DNA of 62,144 nucleotides from an uncultured Bacteroidales bacterium (GTDB lineage: Bacteria > Bacteroidota > Bacteroidia > Bacteroidales > F082): contig ONKQ01000011.1 in assembly GCA_900318465.1 (NCBI GenBank), positions 1 to 62,144 of the forward strand. The letters run 5' to 3'. The translations under genes were made by a program, and so were the position numbers. Every line of letters starts with the position of its first letter. The stretch's first letter is position 1. The notes under the pieces were generated by a model, which worked only from the letters and a program-made list of their open reading frames with translations, made no database searches and was not told the DNA's origin. Shown here one piece after another: positions 58,503 through 61,255 of the stretch.

Positions 58503-58512
58503 GATTTTCGGT
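58503..58512 (+). repeat. 10-bp direct repeat, left copy
   Basis: GATTTTCGGT abuts the left hairpin of the ATPase module. The same ten bases occur at 60109-60118, four bases after the right hairpin. Confidence 0.6.
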
Positions 58513-58561
58513 TGAGTTTTTTCCAAAATTGCGTTTTTTTATCAACTTTGGAAAAAACTCA
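58513..58561. repeat. Hairpin element, left end of the ATPase module
   Basis: TGAGTTTTTTCCAAA (58513-58527) pairs perfectly with TTTGGAAAAAACTCA (58547-58561). The element nearly repeats at 60056-60104 in the same orientation. Confidence 0.9.
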
Positions 58562-58576
58562 GATTACAAAAACTGA

Positions 58577-60001
58577 TTATTGGAACAAGTCATCCATCGT
58601 TAAAATCGAAACAAAAGTTGAGGAATAACGGCCTTCATTAAGACCGTAAGTAGTTAGCAATGTGAGCCATAAGGCTTTCTTTGTTTTTGTTTCATTGCGG
58701 AAAGCCGCTATCCTGTTTTGCAGTTTTTTGGCCTCATCGTTATCAAGGCGAAAATCCGCCTCGCTGTATTTGATTTCAAACAGATTGATGATGCCGTCGG
58801 CGCGGTCAAGAGCCATGTCGATTTGCGCTTTCGGCGCACTTTTCTGGCTCCGCCACGAATAAAATTGGGTCGAAATCCTATCGATGTGGAGTGCTTGCTT
58901 GATTTGTTGCACATGGGTCAGGCACACCCGCTCAAAACTCAATCCCAACCATGTGTTGACCTCGGAAGTGCCGATATGGTTGCTCCAATAGCCCGTTTCA
59001 GCCTCGGCGCGCGACACAAAGGTAAGGTAGAAAAGCGAGTAGAAATCAACAAGTTGGTAGATGGCGGAATTCTTTTTCGTCGTTTTGTTGTGGATGGGAT
59101 ACTTGCGAAGAATGTCGCAATTGACGAGGTCTTCAAGTTTCCCGCTGAGCGAGCCGCTTGAATCCTGGCCCAAAGCCTTCCTCAATTCGTCGCGCGACAT
59201 TCCAGCCTTGACTTTTGCCAAAGCATTGACGATGGTCATATACGATTCCGGCGACTTGAACAAGGTGGAATACAGCCGTTTGTATTCCCTGCGCAGTTCT
59301 TCCTCGTCGCCGAAAAACAGTCGGTCGATGTTGGCGGCGAAACTCTCGCCACGATGAAGCAGGCTCAAATAATAGGGCACGCCGCCCAAGGCCATGTATG
59401 CCTGCATGACGGTCAGGCGGTCCCACTTGAATTGCCGACTCTTGAGGTATAACTCTGTCTCTTTCAGCGTAAACGGGTGCAAATGCAATTCGTGCGTGAT
59501 GCGGTCGTGGAGGCCGCCTTTGTCGTTGACGATGTTGCGTATCATCCACGAGGTGGCGCTGCCGCACACAATCAGCGTCAGGTTGTCTTGCAGCGAAGCC
59601 CAACTGTTCCAAAAATAACCCAATGCCCGCACGAATCCCGACCGTTGCGTGTCCATCGAAGGCAATTCATCGAGGAACACGATGCAACGGCGTTTCAGCG
59701 TGACTTTCTTCTTCAGGTAAAGTTTCAGGATCCTGAAAGCCTCCATCCATGTCTTGGGTTTTTCGGGCAGTTTGCCGCTATATTCCTGCATGGCGTCAAT
59801 GAAAGCCTCCATCTGCTCCTCCTTGGTGCCGTTGAGTACGCCCGTCATGGCAAAGGCCATCTTTCCATTGAACATTTGATTGACGAGATAAGTCTTGCCG
59901 ACCCTTCGGCGGCCATAAATAGCAACAAATTCAGGACGCTCGGAACTGGTATATTCCTTGAGCAATTTTATCTCATGTTCGCGACCTATCAATTTTTCCA
60001 T
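58577..60001 (-). CDS. ATPase with DUF234-like C-terminal nuclease-fold domain
   Basis: The 474-residue protein has VAIYGRRRVGKTYLVNQMF (Walker A), CIVFLDELPSMDT (Walker B) and LIVCGSATSWMI (sensor), of the archaeal-type ATPase_2 group. A winged-helix-like region follows (MSRDELRKALGQDSSGSLSGKLEDL). The C-terminus has QIDMALDRADGIINLFEIKYS, with the Asp and ExK of a PD-(D/E)xK fold, as in DUF234. It is the only gene between two matching hairpins. The function is unknown. Confidence 0.9.
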   Translation of the reverse strand: MEKLIGREHEIKLLKEYTSSERPEFVAIYGRRRVGKTYLVNQMFNGKMAFAMTGVLNGTKEEQMEAFIDAMQEYSGKLPEKPKTWMEAFRILKLYLKKKVTLKRRCIVFLDELPSMDTQRSGFVRALGYFWNSWASLQDNLTLIVCGSATSWMIRNIVNDKGGLHDRITHELHLHPFTLKETELYLKSRQFKWDRLTVMQAYMALGGVPYYLSLLHRGESFAANIDRLFFGDEEELRREYKRLYSTLFKSPESYMTIVNALAKVKAGMSRDELRKALGQDSSGSLSGKLEDLVNCDILRKYPIHNKTTKKNSAIYQLVDFYSLFYLTFVSRAEAETGYWSNHIGTSEVNTWLGLSFERVCLTHVQQIKQALHIDRISTQFYSWRSQKSAPKAQIDMALDRADGIINLFEIKYSEADFRLDNDEAKKLQNRIAAFRNETKTKKALWLTLLTTYGLNEGRYSSTFVSILTMDDLFQ

Positions 60002-60055
60002 AACATTCTATATTCTAACAGGATGCAAAGGAAATAAATTATTCTGAAACCACAA

Positions 60056-60104
60056 TGAGTTTTTTCCAAAATTGTGATTTTTTCTCGATTTTGGAAAAAA
60101 CTCA
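60056..60104. repeat. Hairpin element, right end of the ATPase module
   Basis: TGAGTTTTTTCCAAAAT (60056-60072) pairs perfectly with ATTTTGGAAAAAACTCA (60088-60104). It lies just upstream of the ATPase gene, and the loop is AT-rich. Confidence 0.9.
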
Positions 60105-60108
60105 GATT

Positions 60109-60118
60109 GATTTTCGGT
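60109..60118 (+). repeat. 10-bp direct repeat, right copy
   Basis: GATTTTCGGT matches the left copy at 58503-58512 exactly. Confidence 0.6.
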
Positions 60119-60556: not shown

Positions 60557-60846
60557 TTGCCTTCTCTTGCCAATCTGATTTCTTCATTGATTTCTTCCAA
60601 TGTTAGGTCAGGAAAGCGACCTTCTTCGGCTTGCCTTCTGATTTCAAGGAATGCCTGTCTGCCTTTTTCAAAACTTTCGTCTTTTTCCGACATCTCGATT
60701 TCAAAAGGAATCTTGCGCTTGCGGACAACAGCCCGAACAAAAACATTGAACGCCGTAGAAGCACTCATGCCGAAGCCTTCGCAAAGCGTATCGAAGCGGT
60801 TTTTCAAGTCTGAATCCAAACGGATAGTGTATGCTGATTGCGACAT
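60553..60846 (-). CDS. RelB/DinJ-type antitoxin
   Basis: The ATG at 60846 gives 97 residues (MSQSAYTIRLDSDLKNRFD). The ribbon-helix-helix part (LDSDLKNRFDTLCEGFGMSASTAFNVFVRAVV) is that of RelB/DinJ; the acidic tail should hold the toxin. Pairing of a RelB-type antitoxin with a PIN toxin, not with a RelE toxin, is a mixed arrangement. A shorter copy of its first half lies at 61058-61255. Confidence 0.9.
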   Translation of the reverse strand: MSQSAYTIRLDSDLKNRFDTLCEGFGMSASTAFNVFVRAVVRKRKIPFEIEMSEKDESFEKGRQAFLEIRRQAEEGRFPDLTLEEINEEIRLAREGK

Positions 60847-61057: not shown

Positions 61058-61255
61058 TCAAATGCCATCTTCTTCAGGCATTTCAATCTCAAAAGGAATC
61101 TTACGCTGACGGACAACAGCACGAACAAAGATATTAAACGCCGTAGAAGCGCTCATGCCGAAGCCTTCGCAAAACGCGTCGAAGCGGGCTTTCAAGTGTG
61201 AATCCAAACGGTTGGTCACCCTCTTCAGGCCAAAGTTTGTTCGTCTTTTTTGCAT
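61058..61255 (-). pseudogene. Truncated second RelB/DinJ antitoxin
   Basis: The 65-residue frame contains LDSHLKARFDAFCEGFGMSA and AVVRQRKIPFEIEMPEEDGI. This is near-identical to the ribbon-helix-helix part of the antitoxin at 60846, in DNA as well as protein. The acidic toxin-binding tail is missing after about 20 residues past the helix, and the first 14 residues are unrelated. It may be a dead copy, or it may still bind the operator. No toxin gene accompanies it. Confidence 0.75.

Follow-up and report, generated by a model that had tools for sequence, protein, structure and literature searches.

Family-specific hairpins in direct orientation and the lack of a target-site duplication are characteristic of the RAYT/REP and IS200/IS605 systems, and in IS21 (IstB) and Tn7 (TnsC/TnsA) ATPase and nuclease functions are linked to transposition. 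REPs are described in more than 100 copies in the accessible sections of PMC2817692 and PMC6006769. With regard to defence, PDC-S27 has been counted in surveys as an abundant single-gene candidate for phage defence, and it is among the more abundant predicted defence candidates of rumen and archaeal genomes (accessible sections of PMC12988326 and PMC13356809). Those sections mention neither palindromic brackets nor a mobile unit. In the part of the literature covered, no description of palindromes around these ATPases was found, and the accessible sections of PMC4158269 and PMC6387759, which deal with related ATPase/nuclease families, are silent too.

The unit described below resembles RAYT/REP and IS200/IS605 elements in its single gene, its family-specific hairpins, their direct orientation and the lack of a visible target-site duplication. 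However, a Y1 HUH transposase is absent from it and the gene encodes an ATPase; moreover, unlike REPs with their more than 100 copies (PMC2817692, PMC6006769, in the sections accessible), the intact hairpin of its family is present at most three times per genome in 99 genomes. It also recalls the AAA+ helper ATPases IstB of IS21 and TnsC of Tn7, the latter acting with the TnsA nuclease, in which ATPase and nuclease functions are tied to mobility (PMC11208146, accessible part). In contrast to these, it has no partner transposase, and its ends are palindromes in direct repeat.

The window, i.e., the whole stretch of 62,144 nt analysed here, is one entire contig of a genome (G000) of 3.67 Mb in 132 contigs. 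Its features are collected in Table 1. The first-pass annotation had spoken of a DUF234-type ATPase; the ATPase half of this label stands, with a clear ATPase_2 match (E 7e-17, hmmscan), whereas the DUF234 half is borderline (20.0 bits against a cut-off of 22.5 in hmmscan, and at the cut-off in the genome-wide profile search). The protein is a full-length PDC-S27 (PADLOC model PDLC04984, residues 1-473 of 474, E 3.7e-189), and two further paralogs tested likewise match PDLC04984. An alignment of 14 members contains GRRRVGKT, with a nearly invariant V, and D111 E112, which we take to be the Walker A and Walker B motifs, respectively; D395 and E409-x-K411 are invariant. Beyond the Pfam matches, the protein may be read as an ATPase domain, a winged-helix-like middle and a nuclease-like C-terminal part; a structure prediction reached a pLDDT of 40 and was hence set aside. 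The ATPase gene is the only long open reading frame with a family match inside the unit, and its neighbours are an aldehyde dehydrogenase gene and a PIN_3/RelB pair. In the RelB-like antitoxin gene, 149 nt (60680-60828) are repeated with 85% identity at 61068-61216, 388 nt away, in a shorter second open reading frame.

Table 1. Coordinates of the ATPase gene, its palindromes and the flanking words in the 62,144-nt window
Feature	Position	Strand	Remarks
ATPase gene	58577-60001	-	474 aa; ATPase_2/AAA_14 N-terminal part, DUF234 nuclease-like C-terminal part; PADLOC candidate PDC-S27
Upstream (promoter-side) palindrome	60056-60104	-	49 nt; -103 to -54 relative to the start codon; forms one outer boundary of the unit
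Downstream palindrome	58513-58561	-	49 nt; separated from the stop codon by 15 nt; forms the other outer boundary of the unit; repeats the upstream palindrome directly
Complete unit	58513-60104	-	1592 nt; recurs at other loci with unrelated flanks (alignments)
10-nt word GATTTTCGGT, left	58503-58512	+	belongs to the site
10-nt word GATTTTCGGT, right	60109-60118	+	belongs to the site

Two hairpins with common arms and like orientation had been noticed on either side of the ATPase gene, and both are confirmed. Together with adjoining bases they form a direct repeat of 53 nt (58513-58565 and 60056-60108, 91% identical), and they are the only two palindromes with a stem score of at least 13 (loop 3-25) in the window. 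The exact arm, TGAGTTTTTTCCAAA, has four matches in the 3.67-Mb genome, all within these two hairpins; hairpins scattered over the genome without the ATPase, named in advance as a case against a mobile unit, were therefore not found there. The proposal that the hairpins serve as terminal inverted repeats was not supported, as they are rather direct repeats of a near-palindrome, and the direct orientation scores higher than the inverted one in 29 of the 32 families with matching flanks (see below). The 10-nt word outside the hairpins was found on both sides exactly where it had been reported. In the window, 0.32 copies of it are expected, and 5 of 100 shuffles gave two or more. Chance could account for the 10-bp match, though not for the hairpins.

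The unit recurs in relatives. Near-identical genes (98-99%) occur at the same place in G029 and G050 and with a different upstream flank in G048 and G056, both hairpins being present, and a gene of 91% identity lies at another place in G044, again with both hairpins; in G018 the upstream hairpin is gone. The unit as a query aligned from its first to its last base, or within one base of this, in G044 (83.6%) and G104 (85.6%), each over 1592 nt, and in UBA1195 (70.0%) over 1615 columns, with unrelated flanks. Between loci, homology stops at the outer base of the upstream palindrome and, on the other side, at the outer base of the downstream palindrome or the base before it. Even in UBA1195, where the gene is only 70% identical, the 16-nt arms are fully preserved on both sides. 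The two hairpins of one element are alike (49/49 positions in G104, 48/49 in UBA1195) and loops differ between elements; the loops of an element's two hairpins are, however, clearly unlike each other in G048 and G056. A discrete piece consisting of the gene and both hairpins, as had been supposed, was thus found with exact ends at different loci. With regard to the places occupied by the G044 and G104 copies, one flank alone was well conserved in relatives among the matches listed, and no joint of an empty site was found. The G104 unit and another unit of G000 (family of L052) both lie behind an enoyl-CoA hydratase gene, and these two genes match at 77%.

Pairwise comparison over all families placed 36 of 59 upstream ends of homology within 3 nt of the outer edge of a palindrome, against 5.9% at random, although pairwise ends within one family are not independent. 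Downstream, 8 of 52 ends lie within 1 nt of the palindrome edge and 19 of 52 within 16 nt of the stop codon, with the same dependence within families; many of the latter belong to families with an upstream palindrome only. Because upstream ends sit at palindromes while many downstream ends sit at the stop codon, there are two kinds of unit, bracketed ones and ones with an upstream palindrome only, the latter apparently ending at the gene.

An empty site that joins the flanks by a single copy of GATTTTCGGT had been proposed as a check of mobility. A gene-less allele does exist, in G030, but the single joined copy does not: the order there is dehydrogenase, GATTTTCGGT, one hairpin, TATT, GGTTTTCGGG and the PIN-side flank, so that the gene and one hairpin are missing and GGTTTTCGGG is a changed copy of GATTTTCGGT. 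The loop of this solo hairpin is of the type of the dehydrogenase-side hairpin. Further solo hairpins occur in G016, G012 and G132 (contig C3), and a decayed one in G021. Those of G016, G132 and G021 adjoin a ParE-type toxin gene and a gene that we take from its sequence to be glycoside-hydrolase-like; that of G012 lies at the 3′ end of a presumably kinase-like gene, and a related hairpin is found at the same point in G010. GATTTTCGGT stands on both sides of the unit in G000, G029, G050 and G124. No shared flanking word was seen at the G044, G104 and UBA1195 sites, and the aldehyde dehydrogenase loci without the unit (L116-L132) offered no alignable intergenic target, the 10-mer not being seen in 220 nt of each.

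A second site with differing alleles lies between two permease genes; both genes are present in 12 of 32 loci (10 of 30 loci from the search, and two fetched loci that repeat two of them). It is filled in G133, with one intact hairpin, and in G110, and G132 holds a remnant with both hairpins. In G135, G126, G051, G044, G023, G030 and G045 the unit is absent and the permease genes are 17-197 nt apart. Filled and empty alleles differ by more than the unit, by about 10 nt on one side and about 150 nt on the other, and there is no clean insertion junction. The permease site of G104 holds a PDC-S01 ATPase (AAA_14 + DUF4143), whose family was tested, and the same candidate was recognised by sequence alone at the site in G019 and G129; PDC-S01 is a different family from PDC-S27. 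The junction (L160; L159 and L166 by sequence only) may thus be a shared hot spot for the two defence candidates.

The search covered 100 genomes of the genus including G000, presumably a rumen genus; 56 have an ATPase match and seven have at least 16, at most 16 candidates per genome being scored. The collection comprises 91 distinct genes from 97 loci (102 less five duplicates), 37 of the loci coming from protein and family searches and 60 being fetched regions that were selected among the ATPase matches listed for five related genomes. Grouping at 70% protein identity gave 44 families, drawn from this genus and from three other genomes of the order Bacteroidales. Three of the 91 genes were dropped from flank matching for short flanks, and in 55 of the remaining 88 loci taken singly the upstream and downstream flanks match each other (score at least 18). 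By family, flanks match on both sides in 32 of 44, against 11 of 1892 mismatched family pairs, in a comparison that used the best-scoring member per family and thereby favours own pairs; none of 10,000 permutations reached the observed mean. Hairpin pairs around such ATPases, which the first-pass annotation had recommended looking for, were thus found in 32 families, and the remaining 12 of 44 have no matching downstream flank.

Palindromes are concentrated at these genes. In 60 loci, the stretches up to 250 bp from the genes (30,199 bp in all) hold 80 palindromes of score at least 13 and the other 318,006 bp hold 11, so that the density beside the genes is about 75-fold higher; two of the 11 flank a divergent DUF234 ATPase, one on each side (L059). 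Of 90 genes (one of the 91 being dropped from this count), 79 have a palindrome of score at least 10 within 180 nt upstream, against 36 of 1583 background windows and 15 of 201 windows in a low-GC control (GC under 40%). By family the upstream palindrome is found in 41 of 44, with a run of at least five A or T at its centre in 32 of the 41. The arms vary between families, some being related, and some families without a downstream copy carry two tandem upstream copies. Likeness of protein and likeness of palindrome are weakly correlated (Mantel rho 0.15, 13 of 5000 permutations, again with the best-scoring member of each family), and no protein region clearly stands out as tracking the palindromes (partial rho at most 0.14, a weak hint). 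The bracketing arrangement of hairpins is real and general.

Among 99 genomes of the genus, 35 intact hairpins of the window family were counted in 21, with at most three per genome and none in the reversed control. As judged from their context, 29 adjoin an ATPase or what remains of one, four are solo, one is at a contig edge and one is behind a DUF2442 gene. On this count, at most three intact copies per genome in 99 genomes, a REP-like dispersal of the hairpin was rejected for this family. In the family carriers G000, G048, G018, G050 and G056, the next-best ATPases have 50-56% amino acid identity (16 candidates scored per genome), and in none of the 44 families do the genes fetched, which cover part of the paralogs, include a second member from the same genome. 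The several near-identical copies per genome that mark an insertion sequence were thus not found. The window family appears to be mobile between genomes and not amplified within them, and the single family copy per genome counts mildly against a self-copying element.

More distant homologs show part of the arrangement. Among seven from plasmid or phage records, two of which are near-identical, six (including those of Butyrivibrio, Emticicia and Segatella) have an upstream palindrome of score at least 13, and a matching downstream copy was found in none of the seven. In 22 further distant loci (six plasmid, 16 viral-contig), an upstream palindrome of score at least 11 is present in six. It appears that the upstream palindrome is widespread, not universal. 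In 25 distant loci (19 of the 22, omitting L347, L348 and L350, and six of the seven, omitting L253), direct repeats of 25-91 nt lie on both sides of the gene in four (score at least 16), against 0 of 600 mismatched pairs; the inverted orientation gave 1 of 25 against 1 of 600. Flanking duplication thus seems to recur in other forms among distant homologs. On the Halorientalis plasmid pHOS300 (L338), the homolog lies between direct repeats of 91 nt that agree at 88 positions; the repeated sequence is that of the 3′ end of the adjacent dehydrogenase gene.

These sequence comparisons give good support to a discrete mobile unit with hairpin ends. The evidence for its movement comes from comparing alleles and loci; a transposition event, a circular form and binding are not among the observations. 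The explanation we prefer, at a probability of roughly 0.55, is that the window unit belongs to a large set of PDC-S27 units with a single gene each, bracketed by family-private near-palindromes in direct orientation, inherited and exchanged as one piece, and recognised at these palindromes by their own ATPase. The ends of the piece would be the outer bases of the palindromes, as seen in the window family. Recognition by each ATPase of its own palindromes is most likely because the ATPase gene is the only gene in the unit, the arms are family-specific and, in the window family, the arms outlast the gene sequence. Through the promoter-side palindrome the ATPase would control its own expression, and the pair would delimit the unit and thereby turn it into a cassette that can move and be removed. 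When its two palindromes recombine, the unit may be lost and a solo hairpin left behind; such an allele exists in G030, where it could represent either loss or a precursor. New sites would be reached either by the ATPase-nuclease or by host or other recombination.

That the ATPase itself performs the movement is a possibility. The far-reaching version, in which one-gene elements of a new class are moved by the putative activity of their own ATPase-nuclease, which would bind the palindromes private to it, control its own expression through the promoter-side copy and excise or integrate the unit without a known transposase or recombinase, each family keeping to about one copy per genome, is tentative and rather unlikely at present. 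If the ATPase moves the unit, this would be a new transposition principle; if it does not, this is a striking instance of a defence candidate packaged as a hairpin-ended cassette. The private, strongly conserved palindromes on both sides offer a concrete handle on what the ATPase may recognise and make binding and mobility experiments straightforward.

Several results fit the preferred reading poorly: the filled permease allele differs from the empty one by more than the unit, the two loops within one element differ in G048 and G056, no genome has more than one member of a family among the genes fetched (an active insertion sequence behaves differently), 12 of 44 families and all seven plasmid- or phage-record homologs lack a downstream match, 19 of 52 downstream ends lie near the stop codon, and the correlation of protein with palindrome is weak, with no region standing out (partial rho at most 0.14). 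In an alternative account, quite possible though short of an even chance, the palindromes are regulatory sites, serving autoregulation and possibly looping, while the gene spreads through the usual horizontal transfer and homologous recombination, in which they take no part. An operator role of the upstream copy is favoured because the upstream palindrome is widespread in distant homologs and a downstream match is absent in some, as in the plasmid- and phage-record homologs, six of seven with and none with, respectively. Moreover, 79 of 90 genes have it no more than 180 nt before the start, it precedes a sequence that we take, by its consensus, to be promoter-like, some families have tandem upstream copies and no downstream copy, and among the genes fetched each family is represented once per genome. 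However, such operators leave unexplained the downstream copy in 32 of 44 families, the homology ends at the outer edges of both copies at several loci and the solo hairpins near other genes, and only six of 22 further distant loci carry the upstream palindrome (score at least 11). Regulatory sites, which the first-pass annotation had offered as its alternative, therefore explain the upstream copy well and the downstream copy with its exact ends badly.

Mobilisation in trans by a Y1 (IS200/IS605- or RAYT-like) transposase, with the hairpin-ended ATPase units as passengers, would suit the direct orientation of the ends and the lack of a visible target-site duplication, as in IS200/IS605, and G000 has two Y1 transposases, one of them between its own palindrome pair. 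Yet those palindromes (CGTGCTGGAGGCACG) are unlike the ATPase ones, two enzymes would need to read some forty different hairpins, and the hairpins of the window family are not multicopy, all of which makes this account improbable. More improbable still is the insertion originally envisaged, by a transposase-like event with GATTTTCGGT as a 10-bp target-site duplication. The word does flank both sides in four genomes, including G000, but G044, G104 and UBA1195 lack a shared word, chance yields two copies in 5 of 100 shuffles, and, because the word and its changed copy persist around a single hairpin in the gene-less G030, the word is not a duplication made by gene insertion; the G030 allele is still compatible with a duplication on arrival of a hairpin alone. 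As to chance or an assembly artefact, all 14 named relatives are uncultured or metagenome-derived Bacteroidales/Bacteroidia, and contigs of G007 and G121 start at or near the hairpin. The identical arrangement in many separate assemblies and families argues against it, and the family flank matches (32/44 against 11/1892) and the palindrome density (about 75-fold) are taken as its refutation, leaving it next to no probability.

Some observations concern genes other than the ATPase. An ATPase family with two upstream palindromes (L046, L078, L101) directly precedes another gene, whose start codon the ATPase stop codon overlaps; in other genomes this gene stands directly behind aldehyde dehydrogenase. 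One Y1 transposase gene of G000 (contig C18, L246) lies between GC-rich palindromes at 1100-1152 and 2058-2108, in a RAYT-like arrangement. In G121 (contig C186, L150, positions 1-850), the hairpin of the window family occurs twice behind the 3′ end of an ATPase of that family, its first copy carrying one extra base; the stretch between the two copies contains a DUF2442 gene, possibly with another small gene, and may represent other cargo.
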